Shown here: in pieces, positions 10,130 through 64,000 of the stretch
Position numbering within the stretch: the first letter of the stretch is position 1
Layout: the number at the start of each line of letters is the position of its first letter
Assembly (NCBI GenBank): GCA_030068145.1
Contig: JAPJBO010000917.1
Location: 1 to 64,000 of the forward strand
Reading direction: 5' to 3'
Source of the DNA: Diplonema papillatum
Taxonomy: Eukaryota > Euglenozoa > Diplonemea > Diplonemida > Diplonemidae
DNA length: 64,000 nt
Position numbers and translations under genes: made by a program
Notes under the pieces: model-generated
The model's input: only the letters and a program-made list of their open reading frames with translations
Databases searched by the model: none
What the model was told of the DNA's origin: nothing

Positions 10130-10141
10130 CCACGTGACAAG

Positions 10142-10200
10142 CCGTTAAGCATTGAGTTCTTTTAAGTACATGAACCACATGGATTAGCATGCACTGCCTT
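10142..10200 (-). repeat. Shared 3'-terminal sequence of the retroelement, copy E1
   Basis: A ~55-bp block just downstream of the ORF stop, found at the 3' end of all four copies in the array. In the minus orientation it reads GGCAGTGCATGCTAATCCAT, then GTGGTTCATG, then ACTTAAAAGAACTC and AATGCTTAACGG. It is probably the 3' UTR end recognised by the reverse transcriptase. It also opens a short frame (MLIHVVHVLKRTQCLT) that reads into whatever lies downstream. Confidence 0.9.
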
Positions 10201-10210
10201 GAAAGTCAGG

Positions 10211-13200
10211 TTATCGGATGACGTCGTCACCTGCCATTGCGTCGTCAAGGTCGAGCATTTGTGGAGCTAGCGGGGTTTGGCTTTCTTGCGATTCCAAAGA
10301 CTGAGTCGGCGAGTACGAGGGCGGGCAGGAGTGCCCGTTTTCCACTTTCGAGGGCATTGGTGTGCCCGTGGTCCCCGGTCGTTTCTGAGAGCTGCTTGCC
10401 CTCGGTACCTTCTTCTTCCTTCGATGCACCCCTGAGTCGGGTGTGGTCGCCTTCGTCTTCTTCCGCTTGCGGCCGGCGATCGGGCCTTCCTTCGGGGTGC
10501 CGAGCACCCTCTTCTTCAGCGCTGGTCGTTCGCTGGTTCCTGGCGTTGGTGGCGGCCTCTTGGTCGCCCGTCCGGTCGTCGCCGTCTCCTTTTTCGTTGC
10601 CGCGAGCGGCGCTCGCGCCGCTCGCGCCGCTCGCTTTCCTACTGGCGTTTCCCGCTGTACACCCACCTGGGTGGGTGAGGAGGGCCTCTTCTTCTTGTTG
10701 CGTCCGGGGGTTGACTGGACGTTCGGCTTGTTGGACTGGTGGTGGCCGCGGCTGCAACATGCCGCCGGTCGCCTCTGCGTCAGCGTAGGGAGCCTTTTGC
10801 ACTCTTGGCAGGTCCCTCTGCCATGCGTGCGGCAGGCATGATGCCCGCTGCGGCAACACGCCGCCGCCGTCTTGCACTCGCCGCACTTCGTCGTGCTGTG
10901 CTCTGTGCACACCGCGATCGGCTGCCCATCGTTCGCGTGGTGATGGTGCCGGCAGCACATCTCTACCGTGGGAACGTCCCTTCGGACGAGTGCTCTGCAC
11001 GCCTCACACTTCCCTTTGTGATGGGTCGCGCACGTGACGAGTGCCTTCTCTATACCGACACCCGGCATATGCACGGGGTCTGGGTGCAGTTGTGGTGGGG
11101 CAGGCAGGGCCCACCTCGCCGCTCTCCCGATCGTCCAGTCAGGGTACGTCGGGCACTGCGTCCCTACATCGCTTCCTTTCACTTGTTCCTCAAGTATCGT
11201 CCCCGTGTGTGCCTCGCGAAAGCGTGGCCTGGGCCGTATACCCGATATCCCCGTGATGCCCATGAACGACAGCGACGTCGTCGGGCACACCCTCTCTCCT
11301 CTCATGCAGCTTCCCAGCCCTTGCTGTGCCGCCAGCTTGTCCAACGCGCTCATCATGCAGCGCAGGACGTTTCCCCGTTCTCTCACCCCCTTCGGCGCAT
11401 TCCCGTGCAGCGGCATGCTGAGGCCCGAGAAGAGTTCAAAGTCGATCGCAAGCTCCAGCATTGACGCCTGCCCGTTCTCGGTCCATTGCATGTCCGACAG
11501 CCACGCTACCAACGCATAAAACGTCGGTAGTCCCCAGGTCTTGTTCCGCTCCCACGTCCATGCCGGGGCAATCCGCGCGAAGGGGTGGTCAAATTTCTCG
11601 GCAGGCATCGCATTCGCTCTCGACCAGGGGGTCGTGGGGTTCCTGGCCACCCAGCCACGTGCTTCGAGCCCAGCCCGTTCCGCAAGGATTTCAGCCATCA
11701 TCTCCTGGAGCCGCCTCGAGAATTGGGCATTCTCGGGTACTACCACACCGTGTTCCAGCGTGCATCTGGGCCAGTCGGCCCGGTTGGCTGCCATCAGCTC
11801 GGCATGTGCCTCTCGTCGCCGTATGTGCGAGTACGCTCCGCAGTCCCAGAATACGTGTTTCTCGTCCTCGGTGTCGCCGCTTCCACAGTGCTTGCAGCTG
11901 GGCGCCTGCGGCTCAGCTCCGGCCTGCCTCATCCGCGACGTGTACTCAGCCGTGTTCACCCCCCCCGCCAACGCTACACGTATAAGCCTCGCGGTGTGCG
12001 CGGGACATTCACGCATCCTCCAGAAGGTGTTCGTCCGCTCCAGGTCGGCTCTCTGTATGCCCTCAAATCCCGGCCGCCTCGCCACCAGTCGGGACCACGT
12101 CTTCGCCCTCAAGTCCGCCCTAACTTCATGTCCCCTCTTCGAAGGTGCCGAGGCTAACGGGTCAAATGTTGCACCATTCCTCAGCGTGCGAGACAGGGGC
12201 CCGGGTCCCCATACGTGTCCACACTCCTCCATGCTCCTCATCGCCAGTCCAACTGGCCCCAGGGGTAGGTCCCCCTCGGCGTATCTTCCCCGGATGCTCT
12301 CCATCAGAGGCAGCAGTCGTGGCAACCTCTCGCACGCCGCGTAAAACGCTGTCGTCACCCTATATGCTAGGCATGTACCGGGATCCGTCAGGTGGCCCTT
12401 CTCCTGAAAGTTTAGGACCATCTCCCTCGCGCGCTTCGGGTTGGATCCACCCCAGATCAGTCCCATCACCGACGTCGTCAGCCGTTTCATCGCCACCTTC
12501 GATACCGGCGCGAAAGAGCAGCCTGACAGCGCCGCCGGTAGCACATTCGACTGCACAATCCGGACCCGCTTTTCGTACCGGAACGGCGCATGGCGGAGGC
12601 CTTCCGCCAGGGCAGCCGCCTTCTCCACCCTCTCCGAGTCGGACCTTTCCGTCCTATTCTTCGCCGTCGAGACTAGGACCCCGAGGCACTTGACGGATTT
12701 GCTAAACCGCAGCAGCGCATCCACGCTGCGGAGTCTGAGAGTCGACTGATGCCTACGTCTCGTCGAGAACGCGACCGTCTTCTGGAGGTTTAGCTCCATC
12801 CCGGTGAGTGTGCAGAACTCGTCTACTACGTCCACTCCCTTTTGCAGGGCGGCCTCCGACAGCCTGGACAGCAGTGTGGCGTCGTCCGCGTATGACTTTG
12901 GACTCACACCCTCCGCTTCTTTCTTGACCGCTTTCATCACTACCGACAGCAGGGCATTGATGAGTATGACGGATACAGGGCACCCTTGAAGGATACCGTT
13001 GGTCACACTGAACTCCCTGCCCACCCCTAATGGTAGCTTGAAGCGTCTCGCGAGCAGTCTGTAGATAGCCCTCAGCGGCTTGAGAACCCGATTGTGCAAT
13101 CCTAAGTCCTCGGCTAAGCGCAGTACTATCTCTCGCGGGACCATGTCGAAGCATTTCCGGAAGTCCAGCGCCACACCGTAGAGCGGCTCCCCGTCTAACA

Positions 13201-14083
13201 AGGCGTCCTCCATCTCGAGCCCAATTTCCATCAAGACGTCCTCGATCCGGTGACCCGGTCGAAAGCCTTTCTGTCCTTCTTCGATCCATTCCTCTTGCCA
13301 CAGTACTATGTCCGCCAGCCTGCGGCAGGCCCATAAGCGGTACACGGCGGATGTGACGGTTATCGGTCTTGTGTGCAGCGGGTCTTGACTCTCATCCTTC
13401 GGCACCATCGACACCAGCGCAGTTGTCATGCTTGCCGGCCAGTCTCCAGTTGCTTCGACCAGGTTCATGACGTCTGCAAGTGCATTCAGCAGGGGGAGCG
13501 GCAACTCCCGCAGTTCAGCCATACGCCAGCCATCCACCCCTGACGCGCTTTTCTTCGGCTTCTTCCTCAGCAGAATTCGCAGCTCCTCCCCCGTGATTGT
13601 TCCGGCTTCCATCATATGTGGGCCGATGTGATCCCGGAACCGATCCCGAAACGGCTCGTACTCCGGCTCTGGCCCGTCCTTGTACTTACGCAGGATAGGG
13701 TCCCACGCAGTGTTCAGCACCTCGTCCATCTCGTCAACATTTGCAGTCACTCCCGCCCCCTTTCGCAACACCCCCGACGGCTCAGCGCGTCCGGCGCAGA
13801 TGGTTGTCAGACATCGTCTGCTCGCATCGGCCCTCTCGTTCAGCTTGTCTCGGTATTTCGTAAACCTGGCCGCCGATCCTTCCTTTCCGAGCCTGCTCGT
13901 CTCTTCCCGCAATGCCGTGAGAAGCTGCTTCGCCTCCTCATGATCCGGGAATCCTTCTGTCCCTTGGCCATCTTTCATGCACGCCTGTGCCAGCCGCCTG
14001 CTGTTCTGCCAGCAACGGGATACCTCATGCGGAACTGCCTCCGGCCCGCGCCGTTGCGCAAGGTAGCTGCAGATGCGTTCCAT
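10211..14083 (-). CDS. Non-LTR reverse transcriptase with C-terminal Cys/His array (E1)
   Basis: The frame is 1290 codons long, opening at an ATG that is probably internal because the frame continues upstream to the truncation. Residues ~170-450 form the RT domain: S-G-V-D-G-W, V-A-L-D-F-R-K-C-F-D-M, G-I-L-Q-G-C-P, and the catalytic Y-A-D-D at 398-401. A zinc knuckle C-x2-C..H..C (CKHCGSGDTEDEKHVFWDC) begins at ~730. A module with A-I-D-F-E-L-F-S-G-L follows. Residues ~1018-1116 hold three units of C-x2-H-x4-C-x2-C-xn-C-C-x3-H-H, probably zinc-binding. The last ~170 residues are Lys/Arg/Pro-rich with nuclear-signal-like clusters and an acidic end. No endonuclease is visible; it would lie in the missing 5' part. 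The product would perform target-primed reverse transcription of its own RNA. Confidence 0.9.
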   Translation of the reverse strand: MERICSYLAQRRGPEAVPHEVSRCWQNSRRLAQACMKDGQGTEGFPDHEEAKQLLTALREETSRLGKEGSAARFTKYRDKLNERADASRRCLTTICAGRAEPSGVLRKGAGVTANVDEMDEVLNTAWDPILRKYKDGPEPEYEPFRDRFRDHIGPHMMEAGTITGEELRILLRKKPKKSASGVDGWRMAELRELPLPLLNALADVMNLVEATGDWPASMTTALVSMVPKDESQDPLHTRPITVTSAVYRLWACRRLADIVLWQEEWIEEGQKGFRPGHRIEDVLMEIGLEMEDALLDGEPLYGVALDFRKCFDMVPREIVLRLAEDLGLHNRVLKPLRAIYRLLARRFKLPLGVGREFSVTNGILQGCPVSVILINALLSVVMKAVKKEAEGVSPKSYADDATLLSRLSEAALQKGVDVVDEFCTLTGMELNLQKTVAFSTRRRHQSTLRLRSVDALLRFSKSVKCLGVLVSTAKNRTERSDSERVEKAAALAEGLRHAPFRYEKRVRIVQSNVLPAALSGCSFAPVSKVAMKRLTTSVMGLIWGGSNPKRAREMVLNFQEKGHLTDPGTCLAYRVTTAFYAACERLPRLLPLMESIRGRYAEGDLPLGPVGLAMRSMEECGHVWGPGPLSRTLRNGATFDPLASAPSKRGHEVRADLRAKTWSRLVARRPGFEGIQRADLERTNTFWRMRECPAHTARLIRVALAGGVNTAEYTSRMRQAGAEPQAPSCKHCGSGDTEDEKHVFWDCGAYSHIRRREAHAELMAANRADWPRCTLEHGVVVPENAQFSRRLQEMMAEILAERAGLEARGWVARNPTTPWSRANAMPAEKFDHPFARIAPAWTWERNKTWGLPTFYALVAWLSDMQWTENGQASMLELAIDFELFSGLSMPLHGNAPKGVRERGNVLRCMMSALDKLAAQQGLGSCMRGERVCPTTSLSFMGITGISGIRPRPRFREAHTGTILEEQVKGSDVGTQCPTYPDWTIGRAARWALPAPPQLHPDPVHMPGVGIEKALVTCATHHKGKCEACRALVRRDVPTVEMCCRHHHHANDGQPIAVCTEHSTTKCGECKTAAACCRSGHHACRTHGRGTCQECKRLPTLTQRRPAACCSRGHHQSNKPNVQSTPGRNKKKRPSSPTQVGVQRETPVGKRAARAARAPLAATKKETATTGRATKRPPPTPGTSERPALKKRVLGTPKEGPIAGRKRKKTKATTPDSGVHRRKKKVPRASSSQKRPGTTGTPMPSKVENGHSCPPSYSPTQSLESQESQTPLAPQMLDLDDAMAGDDVIR

Positions 14084-14116
14084 CCTGTGGATGGCCTTCC
14101 GGAGCCACGTGACAAG

Positions 14117-14176
14117 TCGCTAAGCATTGAGTTCTTTTAAGTACATGAACCACATGGATTAGCATGCACTGCCTCG
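14117..14176 (-). repeat. Shared 3'-terminal sequence, copy E2
   Basis: Same block as at 10142-10200, with two changes near the end (AATGCTTAGCGA). It joins CTTGTCACGTGG, the probable target sequence of E1, and then the truncated 5' end of E1. Confidence 0.9.
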
Positions 14177-14198
14177 ATAGTCAGGTTATCGGATGCCG

Positions 14199-16328
14199 CT
14201 AAGCAGTGTGAACTTGAAATGCAGGTACCACAGGGGTAAGCTTGCATTTGTCATAGGCTAGGGTTATTTGAATACGTCGTCCGAGGACGATCTCAAAGCG
14301 GACGAGGACGGTGATAATAGCCTGGTGATAACCAGCACCATTTTTCGTTTGTTGCGCTTTCGCGCCGACTGTCCTGCCGAAGCAGTCGCTCGAGGGGGGC
14401 GATCCTGACATGGATGAGGATGAAGTCGAGGTGGCAGGGCTGGTGATATCCAGCTCTCTCGAAATGTTGCGCTTTCGCGCCGCGTGCTTTTTTCCGGGTT
14501 TTCCCGCCGGGTCATTCGGTGGTGTCGGGAGTCGGGCTCTTTTCTGCCCCTTTCTTGGTGGTGTCGCTCGGGCCGGCTCGGTCGGAGCGTGCTTTTTCGC
14601 CATCTTGGCCGCCTTTGGGGACGCTTGACGCGTCCTCTTCATGCGCGGTGGTGTCGTCGGCTTCTGTCGGCCCTTCTTCCGCGGCGTTGTTGGCTTCGGC
14701 TTAGCGGGGGCTGGCTTCGGGGGCGCTGGCACGTGGTGGCCCTTTTTGCAGCAGGCTGACGGCCGCCGTTCCGCTAGCGTCGGTAAGCCGCGGCAGTCGT
14801 CACACGGACCGCGGGCGTGTTCGCGGCAGTCATGGTGGCCGGCCTTGCAGCACGCTGTTGGCGTGTTGCACTCCACGCATCTCGTCATGCGGTGCCGGTC
14901 GCAGACCGCCGGAGGTAAGCCGTCGTTGTCGGTGTGGTGGTGTCGGCAACATGCCTCCACCGTAGGGCCGTGGTGGTGCCCGAGTGCGCGACAGACTGCG
15001 CACTTCCCTTTGTGATGGGTAGCGCACTTGGGGGCATTCTTCGTCGCCTCCGGCACTGCGTGTGGGAGGTGCAGGGGATCCGGGTTGGCCAGTGGCGCTC
15101 TGGGGATTACCCATCGCCGCGCTCTGTCCGTCCGCTCGGGCGGGTACGCCGGCGCTGTGCCGTAGCCGGTTTTCACCTGCTGCATGATGGTCGGCCCGGT
15201 TTCGGGCATGCGGTGGCGGGGCCGGGGCTGGAAGCCGGGTACGCTGCTCAGGCCTATGAACGACAAGGCTGTCGTTCGCGACTTGAAGTCGCCAGGGAGG
15301 CACTTGCCGAGTTGTTGTTGCACGGCCAGCTTGTTGATTGCGCTCAACATGCAGCGCATCCCGTTGGCCTTCTCCCGATGCGTCTTGGCCGCCTTGCTAG
15401 GTGCCTTGATGTCGAGGCCCGAGAACAGCTCGAAGTCGATAGCTGCCTCTACCGCTGCCATGTCGCCATCCGATGACCATTCGAGGCCCGAGAGCCAGTC
15501 GATCGCTGCCAGGAATGTCCTTTCGTCCCAGTAGCGTAGCCACGCCCAGGCCGGGGCGATGCGCCGGAACGGGAACTCGCGTTTCGCCGTTGGCATCTGC
15601 GCGCAGCGCTCCCAGGGGGTCGCCGCCTTTCGTTCTAGCCATTTAACGTTGACCCGGCGCGCCCGCTCCGCCAGGATCTCTGCCATCAGCGCTTGTACCG
15701 GCCCGGCAAATTCCCGTGTCGCCGGCGTCACGATTCCGTGCTCCCGCAGGCAGCTCGGCCAGAGCCTCCTGTCGGACTGTGCGATCCCCGCGTACTCGGG
15801 CTTCGTGCGTATGTTCTCGAAGGCCGTGCAATCCCAGTAGACGTGGTGCTCGTCTTCCAATGCTCCCGAGTCACACAACGTACAGGCGGGGCTTCCGCCT
15901 TGGCGAAATCTCGACGTGTATTCGGCGGTGTTCACGCCACCTGCGAGGGCAACCCTGATCAGCAGCGCGTTCTAGGGCGGACAGTGGCGCGTTGTCCATA
16001 GAGCGTTGGTGGACTCGAACGCGATGTTGGTGATGCCGGAGAAGCTTGGCCGTCGTGTTTCCAACCGCTTCCACAGTCGGTTCCGCAGGTTGTCGCGGAT
16101 GATGTGATTTCGCTCGGAGGCGGACATTGCCAGGGGTCGGAGTGCAGCTCCGTCCAGGTCGACGGACGACGGCGGGCCGCCGTTCCACGTGTGGCCGCAG
16201 GGTTGCAGGCCGTGCCTTACCGCGGTTCCCACCGGGCCAAGGGCTGCGGTCACTCGTTCGCCGTATAGGCGCCGGACTTCCGTCATCAGCGGCATCAGGT
16301 GCGGCAGTCTCCCACAAGCGCTGTAGAC
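14199..16328 (-). pseudogene. 5'-truncated non-LTR retroelement copy E2 (divergent subfamily)
   Basis: This copy begins at a position equal to about residue 590 of the E1 protein, so it has no RT domain. The reading frame (about 16328 to 14199) is interrupted by a single in-frame TAG at 15973-15975, between T-R-H-C-P-P and N-A-L-L-I-R-V-A-L-A-G-G. Downstream, 578 codons remain open: the knuckle (CTLCDSGALEDEHHVYWDC), the A-I-D-F-E-L-F-S-G-L module, the three-unit Cys/His array and a basic tail. The protein is clearly homologous to E1 but diverged in linkers and tail, while Cys, His and flanking aromatic positions are kept, which suggests past selection on the array. A 5'-truncated copy is expected to be inactive. 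Confidence 0.85.
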
Positions 16329-16385
16329 CGTTAAGCATTGAGTTCTTTTAAGTACATGAACCACCTGGATTAGCATGCACTGCCT
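16329..16385 (-). repeat. Shared 3'-terminal sequence, copy E3
   Basis: Same block (AATGCTTAACGG end), fused directly to the truncated 5' edge of E2 at 16328 without intervening host DNA. Confidence 0.9.
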
Positions 16386-16397
16386 CGCCGCTTAAGG

Positions 16398-19018
16398 TTA
16401 CTTTAAAACGTCGTCACCTGTCATTGCGTCGTCAAGGTCGAGTACTTGTGGCGCCAGGGGCGCTGGGCTTTCTTGCGGTTCCGGGGATTGCGTGGGGGGG
16501 CACAGGTGCGGACAGGCCTGCACGTTTTTCACCCTCGAGGGCACTGGAGTGCTTGGGGACGTCAGACGTTTCTGGTAGCTGCTTGCTTTAAGGGCCTTCC
16601 TCTTTCTTCGTTGCATCCCTGACTCGGGTGTGGTCGCCTTCGCCTTCTTCCGCTTGCGCCGGCGATCGGGCTCTCCCTCTTTTTCGATGCTGGTCGTTCG
16701 CCGGTCCCTGGCGTTGGTGGCGGCCTCTTGGCTGCCCGTCCGGTCGTCGCCGTCTTCTGCTTCGCTACGGCGGGCGGCGCCTGCGCCGCGCGCTTTCCCG
16801 CCGGCGTTTCTCGTTGTACGCCCACCTGGGGTCTCTTCTTCTTTTTGCTGTGTCCGGGGGTTGCCGGGGCGTTCGGTTCGTTGGGTTGGTGGTGGCCGCG
16901 GCGGCAGCACGCTGCCGGTCTCCTCTGCGTCAACGTAGGGAGCCTCCTGCATTCTTGGCAGGTTCCTCTGCCATGCGTGCGGCAGGCATGATGCCCGCTG
17001 CGGCAGCACGCCGCCGCCGTCTTGCACTCGCCGCACTTCGTCGTGCTGTGCTCCACGCACACGGCGATCGGCTGCCCATCGTCAGCGTGGTGATGGTGCC
17101 GACAGCACATCTCTACCGTGGGTACGTCCCTTCGGACGAGTGCTCGGCACGCCTCACACTTCCCCTTGTGGTGGGTCGCGCAGGTGACGAGTGCTTTCTC
17201 TACTCCGACACCCGGCATATGCACGGGGTCGGGGTGCAGCTGTGGTGGGACAGGCAGGGCCCACCTCGCCGCTCTCTCGGCCGTCCAGTCCGGGTACGTC
17301 GGGCACTGCGTCCCTACATCGCTTCCCTTCACCTGCTCTTCGAGGATCGTCCCCGTGTGTGCCTCGCGAAAGCGGGGCCTGGGCCGCACCCCCGATATCC
17401 CCGAGATGCCCATGAACGACAGCGACGTCGTCGGGCATACTCTCTCGCCTCGCTCGCAACTCCCCAGCCCTTGCTGTGTCGCCAGCTTGTCCAACGCGCT
17501 GATCATGCAGCGCAGGACGTTTCCTCGCTCCCTCACCCCCTTCGGTGCATTCTCGTGCAGCGGTATGCTGAGGCCTGAAAAGAGTTCAAAGTCGATGGCA
17601 AGCTCTAGCATTGACGCCTGCCCGTTCTCGGTCCACTCCATGTCTGATAGCCACGCTACCAACGCATAAAACGTCGGTAGTCCCCAGGCCTTGTTCCGCT
17701 CCCACGCCCATGCCGGGGCAATCCGCGCAAAGGGGTGGTCGAGCTTCTCGGCAGGCATCGCATCCGCTCTCGACCAGGGGGTCGTGGGGTTCCTGGCTAC
17801 CCAGCCTCGTGCTTCGAGCCCTGCCCGTTCCGCAAGGATTTCAGCCATCATCTCCTGGAGCCGCCTCGAGAAGTGGGCATTCTCGGGTACTACCACTCCG
17901 TGTTCCAGCGTGCATCTGGGCCAGTCGGCGCGGTTGGCCGCCATCAGCTCGGCATGTGCCTCTCGTCGCCGTATGTGCGAGTACGCTCCGCAGTCCCAGA
18001 ATACGTGTTTCTCGTCCTCGGTGTCGCCGCTTCCACACTGGGCGCCTGCGGCTCAGCTCCGGCCTGCCTCATCCGCGACGTGAACTCAGCCGTGTTCACT
18101 CCTCCCGCCAACGCTATTCGTATAAGCCTCGCGGTGTGCGCGGGACGTTCACGCATCCTCCAGTAGGAGTTCGTCCGCTCCAGATCGGACCCTCAAATCC
18201 CGGCCGCCTCGCTACCAGACGGGACCACGTCTTCGCCCTCAAATCCGCCCTCACTTCATGCCCCCTCTTCGAGGGTGTCGAGGCTATCGGGTCATACATT
18301 GCTCCATTCCTCAGCGTGCGAGTCAGGTCCACACTCCTCCATGCTTCTCTTCGCCAGTCCAACTGGCCCCAGGGGTAGGTCCCCCTCGGCGTACCTTCCC
18401 CGGATGCTCTCCATCAGAGGCAGAAGTCGTGGCAACCTCTCGCACGCCGCGTAGAACGCCGTCGTCACCCTATATGCTAGGCATGTACTGGGGTTCGTCA
18501 GGTGACCCTTCTCCTGAAAATTTAGGACCATCTCCCTCGAGCGCTTTGGGTTGGACCCACCCCAGATCAGTCCCATCACCGACGTCGTCAGCCGTTTCAT
18601 TGCCACCTTCGACACCGGCGCGAAAGAGCAGCCTGACAGCGCCGCCGGTAGCACATTCGACTGTACAATCCGGACCCGCTTCTCGTACCGGAACGGCGCA
18701 TGGCGGAGGCCTTCCGCCAGGGCAGCCGCCTTCTTCACCCTCTTCGAGTCGGACCTTTCTGTCCTATTCTTCACCGTCGAGACTAGGACCCCCAGGCACG
18801 TGACAGATTTGCCAAACCGCAGCAGCGCATCCACGCTGCGGAGTCTGAGCGTCGACTGATGCCTACGTCGTCGAGAAGGCGGCCGTTTTCTGGAGGTTTA
18901 GCTCGATTCCGGTGAGCGTGCAGAACTCGTCTACTACGTCCACCCCCTTTTGCAGGGCGGCCTCCGACAGCCTGGATAGCAGTGTGGCATCGTCCGCGTA
19001 CGACTTTGGGCTCACCCC
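16398..19018 (-). pseudogene. 5'-truncated, frameshifted non-LTR retroelement copy E3
   Basis: This copy is very close to E1 in sequence. It starts within the RT, at the S-P-K-S-Y-A-D-D motif (about residue 393 of E1), so most of the polymerase is missing. Frameshifts break it into pieces. A 10-bp deletion in the knuckle region near 18038 removes CxxC residues, and further small deletions occur near 18190, 18330 and 18875. The longest intact piece (460 codons, 17944-16562) carries the DFELFSGL module, the Cys/His array and part of the basic tail. It is non-functional. Confidence 0.9.
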
Positions 19019-19078
19019 CGTTAAGCATTGAGTTCTTTTAAGTACATGAACCACATGGATTAGCATGCACTGCCTCGA
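19019..19078 (-). repeat. Shared 3'-terminal sequence, copy E4
   Basis: Same block, fused directly to the truncated 5' edge of E3 at 19018 (ACCCCCGTTAAGC on the plus strand). Confidence 0.9.
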
Positions 19079-19086
19079 TAGCCAGG

Positions 19087-19700
19087 TTATCGGATGACGT
19101 CGTCACCTGCCACTGCGAGGTCGAGCATTTGTGGCGCTCGCGGGATTTGGCTTTCTTGCGATTCCATAGACTGAGTCGGCGAGTACGAGGGCGGGCAGGA
19201 GTGCCCGTTTTTCACTTTCGAGGGCATTGGTGTGCCCGTGGTCCCCGGTCGTTTCTGAGAGCTGCTTGCCCTCGGTACCTTCTTCTTCCTCCGATGCACC
19301 CCTGAGTCGGGTGTGGTCGCCTTCGTCTTCTTCCGCTTGCGGCCGGCGATCGGGCCTTCCTTCGGGGTGCCGAGCACCCTCTTCTTTAGCGCTGGTCGTT
19401 CGCTGGTTCCTGGCGCTGGTGGCGGCCTCTTGGTCGCCCGTCCGGTCGTCGCCGTCTCCTTTTTCGTTGCCGTGGGCGGCGCTTGCGCCGCTCGCTTTCC
19501 TACTGGCGTTTCCCGTTGTATGCCCACCTGGGTGGGTGAGGATGGCCTCTTCTTCTTGTTGCGTCCGGGGGTTGACGGGACGTTCGGCTTGTTGGACTGG
19601 TGGTGGCCGCCGGCTGCAACATGCCGCCGGTCAGCGTAGGGAGCCTTTTGCACTCTTGGCAGGTTCCTCTGCCATCGTGCGGCAGGCCCGCCACGGGGCA
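19087..19700 (-). pseudogene. Short 5'-truncated non-LTR retroelement copy E4
   Basis: Only the last part of the protein remains: a damaged piece of the third Cys/His unit (GRGTCQECKRLPTLT is in another frame from the rest) and the basic tail, nearly identical to E1 (K-K-R-V-L-G-T-P-K-E-G-P-I-A-G-R). The left part has lost several short blocks relative to E1. Its 5' edge near 19690-19700 abuts the end of a USP-like fragment. Confidence 0.85.
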
Positions 19701-19733
19701 CTGCTTTCACTTAGTGAAAGTGTTTACACCTTC

Positions 19734-20045: not shown

Positions 20046-20049
20046 CTCC

Positions 20050-21160: not shown

Positions 21161-22922
21161 TACCGTATGCGGGTTTAATATGAAACGTGTTTAGTACGAA
21201 ACGGTTTTATTACGAAAGGTGTTAATTAAGAAACACCCCTGACCTGAAGCTATGAAACATTAACACGTTTCGCATTAAAAACTGCACTTCCATAGGGGTT
21301 TTTGAGGGTTTTTGTACTTGGAGTAAACTGGGGCACAGTAAAAAAGGGACGCAGGAAAATTGATAGAAAAAATGAACCTCAAAAAAGAAATATGCACCGA
21401 TTTCTTCGCCCGTGTCAGCCCTTCACCCCATGCGCAGCAGATTCGACAGTTCCCCCAAATGCGAGAAAACGTTCGCACATTTTTTTGGATATCCGGGTCT
21501 ATTTTTCGCGGATCTCTTCATCGGAGCTGATCACGAGCAAAGAATCGCCGAAAAAGGTCTGCTGCGTGGACCAGCAAAAAAATGTCACCACTCGGGGGGT
21601 TGATTCCCGTCCTTCTCGATGCACGCCCGGTGGTTTCCGCGCCGGGGCCCTGTCTCTTACAAAGACCCACAAACCACGCACATGTTTTGTAATCCCCGGG
21701 TCTAATTTTCACGGATCTCTTCATCGGAGCTGAATGCGAGCGTAAATTCGTCGAAAACGATCTGCTACGTGGACCAGCGGGAAAATGCCACCGTTCAGGG
21801 GATCGATTCCCGCCCTTTCTCAACACACACCTGGTGGTTTCCACGCCCGGTGCCCAGCATAACATAAAGACCCGCGAACCACGCACGTACTTTCTGAGCC
21901 CAAGGTCTAATTTTCGCGGTTCTCTTCATCGGAGCTGATCGCGAGCAAAAAGTCGTTGAAAAAGGTCTGCTCCGTGGACAGCGAAAAAAATGGCACCACC
22001 CAGGGGATCGATTCCCGTCCTTCCCGTCACAAACCTGGTGGTTTCCATGTCCGGTGCCCTGCATCTTGTAAAGACCCGCGAACCACGCACATACTTCTTG
22101 GTCCCCGGGTCCATCCTTCGCGGTTCTCTTCACGGTTCTCTTCATCGGAGCTTATCGCGAGCTAAAAATCGTCAAAAAAAAGTCTGCTGCACGCACGAGC
22201 AAAATTTTCACCAGAAACCCAGCTCCCGCTGGCTCTTCCCAGCTCCCAATGAGCCATAAGAGCTGGGTGCCACCGCCGACACTGCCTGGGAGCTGTCTTC
22301 AACGAAACCTTGGTCGGCTTCATCTCGACTCCTTCGATCCATCCCTCGTTGGATCGGAAACTTTACCACGAAACTCGCCAGGAATTTTGAGATGGCTTTT
22401 TATTGTGCCCTGCTGGCTCCTGCTGGCTCTTTCCAGCTCCCGAGCTGGCTCCAGCTCCGAGAGCCACCGCCAACACTTCCCCAGGCCACCGGTTGCGGAC
22501 AACTTTCTCGCCGAACTCCTTCGTAACTTCAACGAATGTCTCGTACTGAGTGAATGCGCAGATTGCATCAACGATCTGACTTCGCTGATTTTGACCAAGA
22601 GCTTGAAGAACTGGCAAACGATGAATGCGTTGCTGTGGATCCCAGAGCCCGCCCACGCCTGTCGTCTTCATGCACAAGTGCCAGAACGCTCTTGTCGCTA
22701 ATACTCTGACCGCGATACGTTTTTCCTGCTCAAAGGCTCGATAAAACCGAAGATTTTCGGGAACAAAAATGGGGGATCATCATGGGGTTTCAACAGTTTC
22801 CAAATTTCACTAAGTACGTCAGACCCCATGTTTTTAGTACGAAACGTGTTAATTAAGAAACACTTTGGCCAAAAAAGTAGCTAAGAAACATTTCACGTTT
22901 CGTATTAAACCCGCATACGGTA
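21161..22922. mobile_element. TIR element with TA flanks and internal ~205-bp tandem module
   Basis: The left terminus begins CCGTATGCGGGTTTAATA and the right terminus is its reverse complement, with 1 mismatch over 27 bp. Inverted similarity (the GAAACGTG, TTAATTAAGAAACAC and TTTAGTACGAAACG blocks) continues about 150 bp inward. TA borders both ends (21161-21162 and 22921-22922), fitting a Tc1/mariner-type TA target duplication. The interior holds four copies of a ~205-bp module and no transposase gene, so the element is non-autonomous. Confidence 0.8.
21511..22160. repeat. Four tandem copies of a ~205-bp module
   Basis: The landmark GATCTCTTCATCGGAGCTGA (or a close variant) recurs at about 21511, 21714, 21919 and 22135. 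Each unit also contains GGTCTGCTGCGTGGACCAGC, a GGGGATCGATTCCCG-like palindrome and ACCACGCAC. The last unit carries an extra 11-bp duplication. The same module is repeated at 51748-52560 in a different element. Confidence 0.85.
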
Positions 22923-35622: not shown

Positions 35623-35625
<3 letters not shown>

Positions 35626-46420: not shown

Positions 46421-46422
46421 GC

Positions 46423-49058: not shown

Positions 49059-49064
49059 CGGCAC

Positions 49065-50822
49065 CCCTCCCTCACCGCCCCCGGTGCACTGGGCGTCTTT
49101 GTTCTGGTGTTTTTTTTTTTTTGACTGGCGAGTTTAGCTGCTGTTTCGATGATGCTTTGACTAACAAGGTTAGCTACTGTGTTAGTGCGTTGCTCAGGGT
49201 AGTCGAAGGCTGACAATCACACTAATGCAACAAATTTACAACGACTAACAAGGTTAGCTACTGTGTTGACTGACGAGTTTAGCTTCAGTTTCGATGCTTT
49301 GCTATGATATGACTGGCGAGTTGCTCTCCTTTGACAGAGTGGTTTTGGATGATTCTAAACTGGATCCACGGTGGTGACCACGGGGGCCCTCGAGTATGAG
49401 CTGACGACGGTGCAGCGGGCTCGCTGGGAATCTGAGGCGGTGCCGGAGTCAATCGTCTGCAAGAAGCCAGCGGGGCTGTGGCGTACGGCATGCGTAGGAT
49501 GCTGAGCGACTATCCGCTCCCTCCCCCCCCGCGACTCCCAGCCCACGGTATTTCGAGAACGTAATTTTGCTTGTAAACGGATCATATGCATAACGCTCTT
49601 CCTACGAAGGACCCGAGGCCTATATGCATACTTTCTCATCGGGGGGTTTTCTGCTATTTGCAACGCTCGGATGGGAAAGGGAAGAAGACATCTGAATCAA
49701 AAGGCTAGGTCGGACGGGTGCGCACATAGGTAGGTGGGCGAAGCAGTACACGTATTTCCTTCGACGGTCACACGACAAGGCAAAAAGAAAAAAAAAACAA
49801 GGCGAAGCGACGAAGAGACGGCAAAAGAAAGACTGCAGGTTGCCGGGTCTCCGTCGCAATGCAGAGAACGGAAAAGACACAGATGAGGCCGATGCGTCGT
49901 TCTCTGCCGTGCCAAGGCAGAAAAACGCGGCAAAGGCGCCGGCATGACAGTGTTCCAGTAGTTCGTAAGAGTTGTTCAATTATACCGCAGATTACACGCG
50001 GTGGTGTTTGGCAGTGTACTATCGACACGCAAGATACGTCTGACGACGGCAATTGTTGAAGTGACGTATGTAGTAAGAGCTAAGAACTCGCTGCCGTCTA
50101 AGCACTGGTGATATCGGGGTTCTTCTGGACACATCGGACCCTTCCGGTTCCAAAGGAGGCAAGCCACCCAGTCTCGAAAATCAGAAACAGCTGCAGAACT
50201 GGTTCGGATTGTACTGATAGAAAGCCGATTCAGCCGGCAGATGAATTACCAGAAAAAAGGAAAGAAAAAGGCTTCGATGCTTTCGAACCCGCTTGGCGTG
50301 CTTGGTTGTCTACAGCAGGGGTAGAGCTTGGCTTAAACCGGGTCAGCCGGCCCATAAGAAAACCACGAGGAAACATGTCGTGCCTACCTCAGGCGTGGGC
50401 GGGTACCGATCTTACCCCGTTTCCGAATTCGGCTTCAACTGCAAGATCCAAGCTCCAGCCTCATCATAGATTCTACGGGCACACGAATACCCAGGGCATT
50501 ATGCCCAGGGCATTATATTGTGCTCAGGTGCGCAATGGGTGAAAGCCTAAAACAAACTGACGCAACCGCAAACAGACGAGGAGTCGATCCGATAACGAGT
50601 GTGCCACGCCAAATGCACCGGTTGATGCTGGCTGGGCACCATGATAACACACGCGAGATTCTGGAGGGGCAAAAGGCGGTGTCCTTGCAGAAAGCTCGGA
50701 CAAAAATCAAATTGTGAGCAGAAGCTAAGGTCACTCACTTGGTGGGCCTGGGTTCCTGGGGCTGAAACTTGGAGCTCGACAGGTAATATAGCCAACCCAC
50801 GAAAAAAGGCACGGGCGTTTCG
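49065..50822. other. No gene recognised
   Basis: The proximal part is the J-domain gene's upstream side. GACTAACAAGGTTAGCTACTGTGTT and GACTGRCGAGTTTAGCT phrases repeat at 49120-49320. No domain-bearing frame is present. Confidence 0.4.
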
Positions 50823-50943: not shown

Positions 50944-51024
50944 CTAGGGCAACCCGCAAGTGGTTACTGGTAGTACGAAAAATGGTTTTCGGAAAAGTGA
51001 CTTGTACCGCTTGACCGGCTAACT

Positions 51025-55764: not shown

Positions 55765-55767
55765 CAC

Positions 55768-58073: not shown

Positions 58074-58161
58074 CTAAGGAGCGGGTTCCTGCTTACTTCG
58101 TGAGGAGCTGGCGGCTCTCTGTCCGTTGCAAGGATGGTGCTCTGTCTGAACCCTTAGAGTG

Positions 58162-58773: not shown

Positions 58774-59024
58774 CGTGTTTCCTTTGAAGAAATGTGAAAA
58801 CGGGTTTTTGCCTAGAGGTGTTTCGTGTTATTCTGCAGATGCTATCTGTGTGTCTATGCTTTCAGTCGTCTTCCAACCATGGTTAAGTGCGCAAAAATGG
58901 TGTCAGCCGAAGCTGGTGAAGCTTCGGCGCCGCCCTCGCTATGTTTGTTGAAAAGAGAAGGGGGGAAAAGGAAGAGGTTCGTGCCCTCGTAGCTCGCCGG
59001 GCCAGCGCTCCAGATAGGACTGGG

Positions 59025-60609
59025 CTAGGTTTTTTGGTGACATGCGGGGTTCTTTGCACAGGTGCGCTCGTGGATTTCGACACCCCGTGCGTTGGCAAGG
59101 ATCCACCGCTCAGTTTTTTCGGTTGCCCCACGATGGGAACAGTCCAGTGGCTGAGCGTTGCCTTGAGATGTCTTATCCTGGTCGGACCATGTCTTCTTCG
59201 TGTCCGGTTTCCCGCTTGGTGGCTGACTGGCTGTTGGACTGGCTGTTGGACTGGCTGTCGGCATGCGGGGACGTTTTCTGCGCGGTGGCGACTCGGGTTG
59301 CGACTGCGATACGCCTTCGAGTACTTCGTTGAAGAAGTTTGACCCGTCTTCAGTAAGATTAGGAGCGGGACCCATGTTCGACGATCGGGCGATAAACCGA
59401 GTCTTTGTGTCGTCGTTCATGTTGCCCTGGACTGGCATGAAGTGCCATTGGGCAATGTGGCCAAGCAGTTGGCAGTGCGAACCGTGTCCCACTTCGCTGC
59501 AATTGTAATCACCCGCGTCTGTGATTTGGAAGATACAGAGTTGGGTGTCTCGCAGGCGCGAGAAACTTTCAAGGGCAAAGTGGTCTCCCCAAGCACTGTT
59601 TCGGAAACCTTCGATGTAGCTTGCTGTAGACCAGCCTTCGCAGAACGGTCGAAGGTAGGTTTGGTTGCTTTCCCAGTAACCCGCTATCTCCTGGCGGAGA
59701 TGTTGCGCTTCTTCTTGTTTGCCATAAGCGAGACTGTGGAAGAGGCAGTTGCCGTCGCCGGGTACTGACCGTGGCTGAAGGTCGATGCTGCAAAGACGTG
59801 TGTACAGTCTCGCTTCGCGTGCAATCATGCCGTTACTGGCCAGCGGACGTACCCATTGAGGGGTTCGTACCTCCTCGTTTTCTGCGAGTGGGAAGAACGT
59901 CGACTTCGAGGTGTGCGTTAGTTCGTCAACAACCGTATCGAGCTTTAGCCTTCTTTTCCGCCCCACGATGGGTTCCTCTCCTGTGAGGGGAAGACCTGCT
60001 TCGTACGCTGCCACGCACGAGTGAAACCACTTTATTAGGTGACGTTGGGAAGGTTCGAGGTTAGGGAGACGCTCCTGTACCCATTGGACGGAGACCTTGA
60101 GAAGTTTGTGCTTCAAGTGGCCTCTCTTGAGGAGAAGAAATGCGTAGTTTTGTTGAAAACTTGACAGTTGGATCTCTCGTAGAGTAGAGTCTGGCCAATT
60201 GTTTGTTAGGGTGAGGCAACGGACTAAGAGGTTCTTGAGGATTGGTGGAGGTACATCGAAGGTTAGGAAGTCATCGATGTAACTCTTCGTGTCGGCGTAC
60301 TGGCGTGCCTTTGCGGGGTCCTCTTTCATCAGCTCATCGACGTACCCGGCTTCAACACTGTAGCAAAATAGGTTGGTCAGGCAGGGGGAGGCGTTAGCCC
60401 CCAAGGGTAGTCCGCAAACCTGCTGGAGGAGCAAAACACTTTGTTCGATGAAGTAGTTGTCCACACACAGGTCTATGAGGGACGCGATTTCGTCGAGTGA
60501 GAAACTCTTCTTTTTGTTCCCTGGTGGATTGAGAGTGATTCCAGAGCAGTTACCAAAAGGGAAGGGAAAGTATGCAAAGAATACTGCAGGGAATATAACT
60601 GACGTTGCT
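59025..60609 (-). CDS. RT-like domain fused to OTU cysteine protease (5' end missing)
   Basis: The frame is open from a stop near 60609 to 59025 with no early ATG, so the 5' part is missing. The first third is reverse-transcriptase-like: S-F-S-L-D-E-I-A-S-L-I, then C-G-L-P-L-G-A-N-A-S-P-C-L-T-N-L-F, and the polymerase motif Y-I-D-D-F at 60281-60270. This is of the type 'GIPMGTN.AP..A.LFLY...YIDDLL' seen in some unclassified eukaryotic elements. The centre is an OTU domain: G-D-G-N-C-L-F-H-S-L (catalytic Cys codon 59745-59747) and W-H-F-M-P-V (His codon 59442-59444). OTU enzymes cleave ubiquitin chains. The tail is Pro/Ser/Thr-rich with T-A-S-P repeats. It probably belongs to a 5'-truncated retroelement and could still be translated. 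Confidence 0.7.
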
Positions 60610-60639
60610 CACAACTGTGGGGAGGAGCGGGGCAATGAA

Positions 60640-60807
60640 TAGAGCCTAGCTTCTCAGTAAGAACCCCAAACAACCCATGGACAGGGTTGCCTACTGGATA
60701 GAACCCCAGCTTCTCAGCAAGAACCCCAAAGATTAGTATGGCGCTTTTTTTGTTTGCGCGTAAGCGGTCCTCACCTGCGGCTCCACCGACTCCTATTGTT
60801 GTAAATT
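60640..60807. repeat. Short repeats between two retroelements
   Basis: AGCTTCTCAGTAAGAACCCCAAA (about 60651-60673) recurs as AGCTTCTCAGCAAGAACCCCAAA (about 60709-60731), a ~58-bp tandem duplication including TAGAACCC/TAGAGCC flanks. Confidence 0.6.
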
Positions 60808-63800
60808 TGTTGCATTAGTGTGTGGGCCTTTGAAGCGTGGATGATGCCTTTCGCGCTGCTCCCCTTGAGGTTCCTGGCTCATGCCAAAGCGCCGCCGCCC
60901 GGGTTAAGGGGTTGCGGCATCAGGCGTGGGCCAGGGCCAGGGAGACTGTTCGGAGGGGTCACCACCCACCGTTCGCGGGCTTCGTTACTTCACTGCCCCC
61001 GGCTCTCCCCGGCCTTCGTCATCCCGGGGGAGGGTTCCACGGCCATCTCCCCCCGCGTGGGGAATGGACTGGTGCTGTGCCGCGGGTCCTTCCGTGCGTC
61101 CTCGCGACGTCGCCGCTGTCGATGTCACTGCCGCTGTTGCTGCCGCTGCAGCCGCTGTCGGGCGGTTGGTTGACGATCCCGGTCTGCACCCCGCCCGTTG
61201 CGCGTCGGCTTTCTTCTTCTCGGCGTTCGCTAGGACGTCCCAAAGGTGGCGGCTGCCGCCGCCGCGTGCGCGACGGTGCGTCGCCCGGTCGTGTCTTGCC
61301 CGTGCCTTCCACTTCTCGCCGCTGTGTTGCCACCCCCGTGGGTAATGGGCCTGGGGTCGGAAGCTGCCGGTCAGGACACCCGCCTTCTCCCAGTGGCCGC
61401 CCTGGTCGCCCCGTCCTTTGTTCGCCATCTTTTTGGGCACGTGCCGTACGGCGGCGACTTCGAACGCCCGCATCACCGCTTCGAAGGCCTCCCGGTTGTT
61501 GATCTGCGGCCGTTTGTTGAGGCCATGGAGGATGGGTCCCCCGAGGCTGGTGAGGTGGTTGACGCGCATCTCGAGGGCCGGGTGGACGGCTTTCACGCGC
61601 GCAATCTTGCCCAACCTGCTCAGCGCGGTCCTCATCGCCCACCCTTTCGCGGTCGCCGAGTCGCTGTAGGCCTGTGCCGCCTGTCGCTGTGCGGTGTCCA
61701 TGGCGCGGTTCGACAGTTCGTCCGCATCCTTGTTGAGCTCGCGAGGAATGTGCACCGGCTCGATCGTCGTCCGTCGGTCGTGCAGCTTCGCCAACAGGTT
61801 CTGCGCCTGGTCGTAGTATCGCCGGAGTGTTTCGTTGCACCTCTTCGTGCCCTTTATCTGACCAATGACCAGTTCGCTGTCGCCCTTGACGACGATGGTG
61901 CGGGGTGTCGGCGGCACGGGGTCCCGCAGCAACCTCGCCAACACGCTGACGAACCCGACGTATTCCGCCACGTTGTTCGTCGCTCTCCCGGCAATGGGCT
62001 TCTCAACTTCCCACTGCTTGACGCCTTTGTCGTAGAAGACCGCCCCGGCTCCCGCGACCGCGCCGTTGGTCCCGTTCCCCCGACTGCCGCCGTCGAAGAA
62101 CGCCGCCGTCTCCTCTCCCGGCAGCGTGTCCGCCACGGTCCAGCGCTCCTTCGGCTGCCGCTGCGCGATGTTCTCCTGCCTCCGCTGTGTGCCGGCCGGC
62201 GTGAGGGTCAGGCCGCTGTGCAGCTCAAAATCGACAGCGAGCTCGAAATACGAGATGGAGGCCTCCTTGCCGGTTTCGGACCACCGCTTCGTCGAGCACC
62301 ATTCTGCCAGCGCCAGGAGCATCTCGTGGGTGTCCTTCCATGCGTTGCGGTCCGGCCGCGCACCGTCGACGTTGATGGTCTGGCTGGCCGTCGGCCGTTG
62401 CGGCTCCCACCCCCACGGATATGTCGACACCTTGAGCTCCTTGCGCCGGCAGTCCTGCTCGAGGATGCCGTCGGCCCGCTGCCTCCCGAGCAGGATCTCG
62501 ACGCACATCAGCTGCATCCCGGCCGCCAGCTCCCTGCATTCGTCGAAGTCGAGTCCCATCGCGTCCTTGGGCATGACGCCGCATAGAGCCATGCACGGCT
62601 TCATCTCGGGCCGCCGAGCGAGCACATTCGGATACGCGCCGCGCACGTCGCTCCACTTGACGCAGTCCCACCACATGTGTTGTTCGTCCTCCGGGACACC
62701 CGCGTCGCAGAATCTGCAGGTTGCTTGCTCCCATCGCTTGCCGGTGTGTACCGCGTTGGCAATGACAGCTCTGACCAGGCCCTGCTGGTAGCCGGTGATG
62801 GCGCCCTTCTCCAGCAGGTCTCGCGTGGCACCCCCGTCGATGCCGTCCTCGATGCCGAGGAGGGATGCCCTCGTCTTGACCACGTCCTTGTAGCGCATCG
62901 TCCGCCCGGCCTCCCGCAGCTCGTGCTGGAAGTTGTGCCGAGCGGTCTGCGCCCGCTGCCTCTCCTCTTTCGTCAGCGGCTCGACGTTCTGCACCACCGT
63001 CCATTCGCGCCGCCGGCCCGTTCCTTCCTGCAGGGTGTCGAACCTGGGCCACGTCCATCCGATGTCTGCGATCGCTCGCTCGAGCAGGAACACTGGCCCC
63101 TCCTTGCTTCGCCCCGGTGCCTCTGGAGCGCCGGGGGGGCGGTCCCGCCTTGCTTGTCGAGCTGCTCGGATGGCAACAACCAGCGGCGCCAAGTGCGACT
63201 GCTTCACCATCTGCTGCGAAAACGTGTTTACCCGCCGATGAATCGCGGCGACACGCGGGTCCAATCTGTGCCCCCGACACAGCGTGTTCAGCACGACGGC
63301 ATCGCACCTCCTGTTGCCGCCGGTCCACAGCCCCGCCAGGGTAGCAACTCGCAGGCCTTCCATGTACGTCCCCGCCGGTTGCCACACCGAGACGCCGTAC
63401 AACGCCTTCGCTGTGGCCGACGCAGCCACGTAACCTTCCTTCTGGTCCATCGGGATCGGCAGGCTTCTCGCCCTTCTCGCGATGTTCTTCGCGGCCTCGA
63501 ACCGGGTTTGAATCCGCCTGCTGGGGGGCGGCGCACCCTTCCCGACCGTAAACATCGCCCCCAGAACGTCGAAGCTTGTCTTCCGCAGTACCTTGTTGCC
63601 CTGCACTGTGAGCGTTCCCGGAGCGTCCGCGTTCGTGGCGTAAAAGAACGACTTCCCAGCGTTGACGCCCCCATCGGTCGCGTTGGCGAAGTCCGTCGTG
63701 ACTTCAGCCACGGCCTTGAGCCCCCTGAGGGACTCCGACATCGCATGAATGTCGTCCAGGTACGCCATCGCCTGGGCCGGTGTTGTCAACGCCCCCACGG

Positions 63801-64000
63801 CCCGCACCCAGACCGCGATGAGCGCGTTTAGGAACAGCACGCTGAGGGGGCACCCTTGTAAGATGCCATTCGTCGCAACGAAAGGCTCCCCGACTGCCCG
63901 CGCCGTCTTGAAGTGGCGCTGCATGCTTCCGTACACCGCCTTCATCGCCCTCAGTACCCCCGGGTCCAGCCCCATCACCTCCATCAAACGGAACATGATC
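60808..64000 (-). mobile_element. RNase H-bearing non-LTR retroelement, 5' end beyond window
   Basis: The 3' terminus (complement of TGTTGCATTAGTGTGTGGGCC, from 60808) is shared with the scrambled copy at 7453. No poly(A) tail or target duplication can be judged, since the 5' end is outside. The single long frame is intact through the window edge. Confidence 0.85.
60985..64000 (-). CDS. Reverse transcriptase/RNase H polyprotein (partial)
   Basis: At least 1003 codons, still open at the window edge. Numbering is from the Met at 63996, which is internal to the RT. Residues ~1-110 contain G-I-L-Q-G-C-P-L-S and the catalytic Y-L-D-D at 79-82. A knuckle C-R-F-C-D-A-G-V-P-E-D-E-Q-H-M-W-W-D-C follows in the middle, then a module with E-L-A-V-D-F-E-L-H-S-G-L. 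RNase H spans about 633-790: F-F-D-G-G-S-R-G-N-G (D635), N-N-V-A-E-Y, K-G-D-S-E-L-V-I and N-K-D-A-D-E-L-S, giving the D-E-D-D set. The tail has a LTSLGG motif and basic Arg/Lys-rich sequence. It would copy element RNA and degrade the RNA strand of the hybrid. No stop or frameshift is seen. Confidence 0.9.
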   Translation of the reverse strand, partial: IMFRLMEVMGLDPGVLRAMKAVYGSMQRHFKTARAVGEPFVATNGILQGCPLSVLFLNALIAVWVRAVGALTTPAQAMAYLDDIHAMSESLRGLKAVAEVTTDFANATDGGVNAGKSFFYATNADAPGTLTVQGNKVLRKTSFDVLGAMFTVGKGAPPPSRRIQTRFEAAKNIARRARSLPIPMDQKEGYVAASATAKALYGVSVWQPAGTYMEGLRVATLAGLWTGGNRRCDAVVLNTLCRGHRLDPRVAAIHRRVNTFSQQMVKQSHLAPLVVAIRAARQARRDRPPGAPEAPGRSKEGPVFLLERAIADIGWTWPRFDTLQEGTGRRREWTVVQNVEPLTKEERQRAQTARHNFQHELREAGRTMRYKDVVKTRASLLGIEDGIDGGATRDLLEKGAITGYQQGLVRAVIANAVHTGKRWEQATCRFCDAGVPEDEQHMWWDCVKWSDVRGAYPNVLARRPEMKPCMALCGVMPKDAMGLDFDECRELAAGMQLMCVEILLGRQRADGILEQDCRRKELKVSTYPWGWEPQRPTASQTINVDGARPDRNAWKDTHEMLLALAEWCSTKRWSETGKEASISYFELAVDFELHSGLTLTPAGTQRRQENIAQRQPKERWTVADTLPGEETAAFFDGGSRGNGTNGAVAGAGAVFYDKGVKQWEVEKPIAGRATNNVAEYVGFVSVLARLLRDPVPPTPRTIVVKGDSELVIGQIKGTKRCNETLRRYYDQAQNLLAKLHDRRTTIEPVHIPRELNKDADELSNRAMDTAQRQAAQAYSDSATAKGWAMRTALSRLGKIARVKAVHPALEMRVNHLTSLGGPILHGLNKRPQINNREAFEAVMRAFEVAAVRHVPKKMANKGRGDQGGHWEKAGVLTGSFRPQAHYPRGWQHSGEKWKARARHDRATHRRARGGGSRHLWDVLANAEKKKADAQRAGCRPGSSTNRPTAAAAAATAAVTSTAATSRGRTEGPAAQHQSIPHAGGDGRGTLPRDDEGRGEPGAVK

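Follow-up and report, generated by a model that had tools for sequence, protein, structure and literature searches.

Two probable sister groups of APE-type retrotransposons in Diplonema papillatum with a common core and different terminal modules

The first 64,000 nucleotides of contig JAPJBO010000917.1 of the diplonemid Diplonema papillatum (assembly GCA_030068145.1; this whole stretch is called the window below) carry two kinds of retroelement, both on the minus strand: family A, in tandem copies at 10152-19710, and family B, at 60808-63999 and running on to contig position 66885. We consider it likely that A and B are sister groups of APE-type retrotransposons without long terminal repeats (non-LTR), each with at least three families, in which a common core bears exchangeable terminal modules and which follow the mechanism set out below. 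The core comprises an APE endonuclease, a reverse transcriptase (RT), a CCHC knuckle and a module ending in DFELxSGL. To this, group A adds a Cys/His array and a basic tail (A1 also has an AlkB domain, and both A1 and A2 have a 2A motif), and group B adds an archaeal-type RNase H, with an OTU domain in B1.

Genome searches covered the 271.4 Mb, 2910-contig assembly, from which loci were fetched (L-numbers). L048 (full-length) served as the reference copy of A1, L074 (1750 amino acids [aa]) of A2, L039 of B1, and L067 (part of open reading frame [ORF] 2) of B2. Matches of 71-72% to the array of the A2 copy E2 were taken as a putative third A family, A3, and a third B family stands at 82% to B2. 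Long A1 copies elsewhere in the genome have an ORF2 of 2007 aa, and the B1 frame stays open beyond the window, with an ORF2 of 1966 aa in L039 preceded by a 615-aa ORF1. The coordinates given in a preliminary description of the window were correct, to which we add the minus strand for every ORF concerned; its three family A proteins (E1 to E3) are real, but all are 5'-truncated, and E2 and E3 are broken. The main parts of E1 and of the B1 copy are as follows.

10152..14104, minus strand: family A1 copy E1, 5'-truncated; open frame 10214-14119, ATG at 14083
12761..13600, minus strand: E1 RT core, with YADD at 12881-12892 (Pfam RVT_1, E 9.8e-21)
11840..11896, minus strand: E1 CCHC knuckle, CKHCGSGDTEDEKHVFWDC (alignment)
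11420..11839, minus strand: E1 module, common to family B, ending in ELAIDFELFSGL (DFELFSGL) (alignment)
10739..11032, minus strand: E1 Cys/His array of three units (motif, shuffles, dN)
10214..10738, minus strand: E1 basic C-terminal tail, poorly conserved (A1-A2 identity 25%, dN 0.96)
10152..10210, minus strand: E1 3' untranslated region (UTR) and 3' terminus
10130..10151, minus strand: target duplication behind E1 (TGCTTAACGGCTTGTCACGTGG); partner copy at 14105-14126
10098..10151, minus strand: target half 3' of the E1 insertion, TGCTTAAC (10144-10151) plus CGTGGGCGG hairpin repeat
60985..63999, minus strand: in-window part of B1 ORF2, which continues to contig position 66885; ORF1 at 66886-68733
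63634..63999, minus strand: in-window part of the B1 RT
62662..62718, minus strand: B1 CCHC knuckle, CRFCDAG...HMWWDC (alignment)
62209..62661, minus strand: B1 module, ending in ELAVDFELHSGL (alignment)
61696..62112, minus strand: B1 archaeal-type RNase H (RVT_3), catalytic D-E-D-D present (Pfam, NCBIfam and PDB matches)
60808..60984, minus strand: B1 3' UTR and 3' junction word CACTAATGCAACA (60808-60820)

When the A1 and B1 proteins were compared by BLASTP (L048 and L039), they aligned in one block from the APE to the end of the module (E 2e-130, 406/1342 identical, 30%). The similarity stops just behind the SGL of ELA(I/V)DFELxSGL, the only other match (20 bits, E 3.2) being noise. By region, A1 and B1 are identical at 35% of positions in the APE, 43% in the RT core, 55% in the knuckle (22 aligned columns) and 29% in the module; between A1 and A2 the values are 58% for the APE, 69% for the RT core and 63% for the array. 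This comparison and the coordinates of E1 and B1 confirm the order described earlier, namely RT, knuckle and module, followed by RNase H and a tail in B or by the array and basic tail in A. In both groups the knuckle follows the RT, with no RNase H between them, and it is probably the known zf-RVT motif, to which the A2 knuckle gave a Pfam match below the cut-off (E 0.0011). The module matched no known endonuclease fold in Pfam or in a PDB sequence search. Pfam gave no restriction-like endonuclease match in either group, and among four aligned rows only the B1 module has a PD pair. Searches of viral contigs with the E1 ORF2 protein, the knuckle-module alignment and the array alignment returned no relatives.

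We built an RT tree from 17 sequences, comprising two A, two B, ten I-like elements of the same genome, and two R2 and one L1 from PDB matches (L054, L058 and L065, of the I-like loci L054-L066, and L001-L008 were left out). A and B were joined with support of 100/100, and each was recovered at 99.9/100; L1 joined the I-like sequences (80.5/76), not A+B. RT identity between A and B was 39-42%, versus 18-25% to every other sequence. The sister relationship proposed earlier was thus borne out among the sequences compared, and the two RTs did not fall in distant clades of this small reference set.

Known systems resemble these elements in part. Tx1 elements have two ORFs and a CCHC motif after the RT, Dualen/RandI elements have a cysteine protease, and Ingi/L1Tc elements have a 2A motif before the APE. 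To our knowledge, no Cys/His array, AlkB, OTU or RNase H occurs in Tx1. Its APE-type endonuclease and target-specific insertion (PMC4640811) recur in A and B, which have the APE N-terminal of the RT, CCHC after the RT and site-specific insertion. Dualen/RandI has an APE, a restriction-like endonuclease and an RNase H (PMC4640811); B1 likewise combines a cysteine protease (OTU) with an APE and an RNase H, but no restriction-like endonuclease was recognised in it, and A1 lacks OTU and RNase H. Ingi/L1Tc of trypanosomatids likewise combine an APE and an RT in euglenozoan hosts, Ingi with RNase H (PMC12278014), but A and B lack the RT-RNase H-CCHC order and the I-type RT; the I-like RTs of this genome do show that order and lie far from A+B in the tree. 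CRE/SLACS elements have a restriction-like endonuclease and insert into spliced leader RNA genes; both groups differ from them in having an APE, and family A in targeting another repeat.

Given these likenesses, A and B could belong to a Tx1/L1-group or Dualen-like lineage already held in Repbase under another name, with only the tail unusual. We regard this as a serious possibility, a little short of an even chance: the APE, the RT-CCHC order and the specificity for repeats resemble those of Tx1, and the combination of modules in B resembles that of Dualen, but the RTs share no more than 22-24% of residues with L1 and R2, and the 2023 genome paper offers nothing beyond annotation labels and postpones the rigorous identification of transposable elements (PMC10161547). 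Our literature searches, with most subscription journals and Repbase outside their scope, found no non-LTR element with AlkB or such an array.

Outside the core, the two groups have different domains. Pfam recognised in A1 an AlkB-type 2OG-FeII_Oxy_2 domain (1.9e-11, residues 178-269), Exo_endo_phos (2.1e-8) and RVT_1 (1.8e-20), but neither OTU nor RNase H. In B1 it found OTU (1.4e-9), Exo_endo_phos (7.9e-11), RVT_1 (1e-13) and RVT_3 (1.8e-10), in A2 (L074) Exo_endo_phos (2.4e-10) and RVT_1 (8.8e-25) without AlkB, and in the partial ORF2 of B2 (L067) RVT_1 and RVT_3. The AlkB assignment in A1 (PF13532, 45 bits versus a cut-off of 31.2) agrees with the signature HxD...H...RxxxxxR, which its N-terminus contains as HRD at 200, LWTHGI at 249 and RVSLTYR at 263. 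A 2A motif, D(V/I)ExNPGP, stands just before the APE, as DVEQNPGP at 338 in A1 and as DIEENPGP at the same place in A2. A captured AlkB-type 2-oxoglutarate-dependent demethylase has been described in an additional ORF of orchid Ty3/Gypsy elements (PMC9289625), which are LTR elements; in the non-LTR A1, a single frame encodes AlkB followed by 2A and APE. No similarity was seen between the ORF1 proteins of A1 (459 aa compared) and B1. Elsewhere in the window, an ORF at 59025-60464 (minus strand), in which a weak RT-like stretch (0.26) is followed by an OTU domain (3.7e-5), perhaps represents another type of retroelement with an OTU protease.

The preliminary description held that the groups swap RNase H for the array at the same position. 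The boundary is indeed the same, and in the BLASTP alignment different C-terminal modules follow it, but the distances differ (about 32 aa to the RNase H in B versus a 129-aa linker to the array in E1), and the direction of a swap was not borne out. An alignment of the parts behind the module (hhalign, two A versus two B sequences) detected no remnant of an RNase H in the tail of A (probability 0.4%), and the array as a worn RNase H was rejected on this result. The term is also too narrow, because the N-termini differ as well (AlkB and 2A in A1, OTU in B1). A true replacement, in which an ancestor had RNase H after the module and lost it in A upon gain of the array, is conceivable, but we hold it doubtful. 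It would account for different modules behind one boundary, and the RNase H of B, with its catalytic residues, belongs to the archaeal-like type acquired independently by L1 elements of plants and oomycetes (PMC5348765); yet no residue of RNase H was seen in A and no outgroup with the module was found, so independent gains are as likely as a swap, and the data fit an acquisition by B after the split just as well. In NCBIfam the B1 RNase H comes closest to RNases HI of archaeal and actinobacterial type, and in PDB it matches, among others, ST0753 and Rv2228c. Family B matches the Ta11-type L1 elements of plants and oomycetes, which have repeatedly captured such an RNase H behind the CCHC motif, in its order of RT, CCHC and C-terminal archaeal-like RNase H, whereas family A has the array in that place (PMC5348765). 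By this analogy the RNase H of B fits the repeated captures; the main text of that study does not contain the word OTU.

Insertion is site-specific in both families, and each has a short target repeat of its own. For A1, a script classed 47 3' ends in 30 array loci, allowing one mismatch in the CGTGGGCGG repeat: 20 lay beside this repeat, 24 beside another A copy and three beside other sequence, ends within one locus not being independent. By eye, the last three proved to be an A2-type 3' end followed by the repeat (L027), a substituted repeat (L029) and a repeat with a deletion (L034). Among seven A2 loci, five ended at the repeat (two of them, L071 and L073, at variants), one at an A copy and one at other sequence. 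The 3' ends of A adjoin TGCT(A/T/C)AAC, with few variants, and because the same words stand before truncated inserted copies, the target duplication must measure at least about 8 bases; around E1 it is 22 bases long, 20/22 identical (10130-10151 and 14105-14126). The pattern TGCTWAACN{7,8}ACGTGGGCGG had 2225 matches in the genome and its reversed control none; among the matches listed, its strand tends to stay constant over long stretches of contig. Four A copies are arranged in tandem in the window, together with a short A1 remnant, before one such target repeat at 10098-10151. Besides E1, these are:

14127..14194, minus strand: short family A1 3'-end remnant, between E2 and E1
14206..16329, minus strand: family A2 copy E2, with a frameshift and a truncated 5' end; knuckle 15828-15884, module 15414-15827, array 14733-15026
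16338..19019 (upper bound approximate), minus strand: family A1 copy E3, broken and 5'-truncated; module 17570-17989, array 16889-17182
19028..19710 (upper bound approximate), minus strand: family A1 remnant E4, tail and 3' end

The E2 frame (14199-15971) departs from the usual A2 tail frame near its end. Downstream of the insertion site, the A target repeat falls into about five sequence classes, and those compared end some 80 to 180 bases on. Inspection by eye (L037 570-690, L054 300-372) suggests a common RNA structure: the classes differ in the stem, the ends could pair, and changes such as GGUGUU/GACACC and GGUGCU/AGCACC would compensate each other. Folding gave z scores of -2.1 for a class-2 unit and -0.4 for a class-5 unit. 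The target repeats matched nothing in Rfam at gathering scores within the window, and no tRNA; loose thresholds gave only matches below the cut-off (e.g., Arthropod_7SK, E 0.011, 17.3 bits versus 44), and one further search gave none. On the strand opposite the A copy, L053 has a candidate ribozyme resembling that of hepatitis delta virus (384-457, plus strand; 29.4 bits versus an Rfam cut-off of 44, E 0.15).

Ten of 12 distinct B 3' ends finish in CA(C/G)TAATGCAACA, the exceptions being L041 and L043. The target word also precedes the 5' end of three copies (L039, L044 and L046), where the upstream context differs (GTCGAAGGCCTGACAATCA). CACTAATGCAACAAATTTACA occurs 517 times in the genome, a count that mixes B 3' ends and targets, and its reversed control does not occur. 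Two more features of this group lie in the window:

7453..9100 (upper bound approximate), minus strand: second family B1 copy, decayed
49182..49240, plus strand: family B target repeat, unoccupied (...GACAATCACACTAATGCAACAAATTTACA)

At 49159-49267, this empty target appears as an insert of about 59 bases between two copies of a 25-base direct repeat (GACTAACAAGGTTAGCTACTGTGTT), so that it is perhaps a tiny retroposon in its own right, or else belongs to a local repetition.

The different targets raise the possibility that the array is a target-reading domain that steers A to the TGCTWAAC hairpin repeat. A1 and A2, whose 3' termini differ, have arrays 63% identical and use the same target, and B, which has no array, uses another. 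We nevertheless think this role unlikely: B is site-specific without an array, so specificity can reside in the APE or elsewhere, and A1 and A2 also share a conserved APE (58%) and a conserved RT core (69%). As the source of site specificity as such, the array was rejected on the same evidence from B.

The array itself repeats the unit C-x2-H-x4-C-x2-C-x(3-15)-CC-x(1-3)-HH three times. Of 200,000 shuffles per array, 41 (A1) and 62 (A2) produced one unit and none produced two. We compared the array of L048, 100% identical to that of E1, with that of L074, one residue from that of E2: Cys was kept at 15/15 positions and His at 11/12, versus 36/71 for other residues. Nonsynonymous divergence (dN) between A1 and A2 was 0.30 in the array, 0.28 in the RT core, 0.37 in the APE and 0.96 in the tail; we used dN instead of ratios because synonymous divergence (dS) was high (1.4 to 5.1) or, in 2/11 regions, undefined. 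The earlier view that these positions are kept between E1 and E2, and that the array looks selected, therefore stands. In the genome search with the E1 array, all 150 candidates scored of 3142 were 100% identical and free of stops; with the E2 array, the 150 scored of 2893 included those at 71-72%. Searched alone against Pfam up to E 10, the A1 array had no match and the A2 array only DUF2293 (E 0.12, below its cut-off); the array profile found nothing in PDB better than one chance match at E 4.1, and the array matched no NCBIfam family, B-box or other curated zinc-finger profile. Reading the array as a decaying or low-complexity tail in which Cys and His are spaced by chance, as the lack of significant database matches and a poor structural model might suggest, is hardly credible given a constraint near that of the RT core, the shuffles without two units and the 150/150 scored copies that are open. 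The motif indicates that the array is probably zinc-stabilised. Its conservation, close to that of the RT core, and its place on the RT protein make nucleic acid the most likely ligand, either element RNA or target DNA, although it may instead bind a host factor.

Some copies of A begin with the spliced leader (SL). A 24-base word of the diplonemid SL occurred 602 times in the genome, and its reversed control did not occur. The number exceeds the 110 SL RNA gene copies reported for D. papillatum (PMC10161547). The genome (about 280 Mb) has polycistronic gene clusters, and essentially all mRNAs carry the SL (PMC10161547). We searched upstream of long copies on contigs up to C236, using 99 SL places from about the first 100 of the 602. 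Among the matches listed, the word lay 6.4-7.7 kb upstream on the same strand in at least 7/15 A1 (ORF2 of at least 1980 aa), at least 1/1 A2 and at least 1/2 A3 copies, in 0/5 B1 and in at least 3/15 I-like copies, while the other strand gave none in any group. Twelve of the 99 places lie upstream of the long A or I-like copies examined. At the one A 5' junction read (L075), the target half GGCAGCCGCTGCTTAAC directly joins the leader, followed by the element, as expected if a trans-spliced mRNA was copied. No leader stands at the one B1 5' junction (L039) that has a full ORF1.

In A1 copies L049, L050, L051 and L052, ORF1 and ORF2 share a frame that only one UGA interrupts (L048 being cut short inside ORF1 and L053 rearranged upstream), and the frame that leads up to the UGA in A2 (L074) is open over the 95 codons available. 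The stop context before ORF2 is UGA-CUA, a leaky one, in L048-L051 and in A2 (L049 1330-1332, L051 6622-6624, L074 5412-5414). The first Met of the A1 ORF2 comes only at codon 221 (207 in L052), behind the AlkB HRD motif, compared with codon 36 in A2 and 59 in B1. Because the A1 frames continue across one UGA and ORF2 has no Met for 220 codons, stop-codon readthrough appears to be the simplest reading for A1.

From these observations we propose the following cycle. A polycistronic transcript containing an A copy would be trans-spliced, and ORF1 would be translated, sometimes with readthrough at UGA-CUA into ORF2; the 2A motif would then free a protein with APE, RT and array. Target-primed reverse transcription is established for APE-type elements, and by analogy we take the core of A and B to work in this way. 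The APE would nick one strand at the TGCTWAAC of the dispersed hairpin repeat, and the A mRNA, spliced leader included, would be copied into the nick, with the probably zinc-stabilised array holding element RNA or target DNA on the RT protein.

Several points weigh against this proposal. The RT tree, whose references are limited to I-like, R2 and L1, cannot name a clade, as Tx1, Dualen and most Repbase clades are absent from it. AlkB is not a feature of all A families, since A2 is without it, and site specificity as such does not require the array, since B does without it. The SL was found for fewer than half of the long A1 copies (7/15, among the matches listed), and the stop context is UGA-CUG in A1 copy L052 and UGA-AGG in B1. 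Synonymous divergence between families is near or past saturation. The AlphaFold models are too poor to reveal a fold in the module (mean predicted local distance difference test score [pLDDT] 39) or zinc sites in the array (four rows, mean pLDDT 45), so the zinc sites are read from motif and conservation.

Among the other features of the window, a piggyBac-type transposase ORF lies at 39988-42660 on the plus strand (DDE_Tnp_1_7, 3.8e-66), with UCH, lipase and retroelement ORFs on the minus strand. Two arrays of tandem units of about 204 bases, at 21422-22173 and 51720-52596, have a common sequence.

We see about an even chance that A and B constitute an undescribed diplonemid clade of site-specific non-LTR elements, with a trans-spliced mRNA, readthrough at UGA-CUA combined with 2A, and end modules exchanged between AlkB plus zinc array and OTU plus RNase H. 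With the same core followed by RNase H in one group and by an unfamiliar array in the other, the two allow a clean comparison of what an RT protein gains from its C-terminal module. The leader carried by some full-length A copies is also relevant to the question of which RNA serves as the retrotransposition intermediate where mRNAs are trans-spliced. Finally, the genome paper reads a dozen AlkB homologs as a sign of methylation regulation (PMC10161547); at least one abundant retrotransposon family of this genome carries an AlkB domain, which could affect counts of AlkB homologs.

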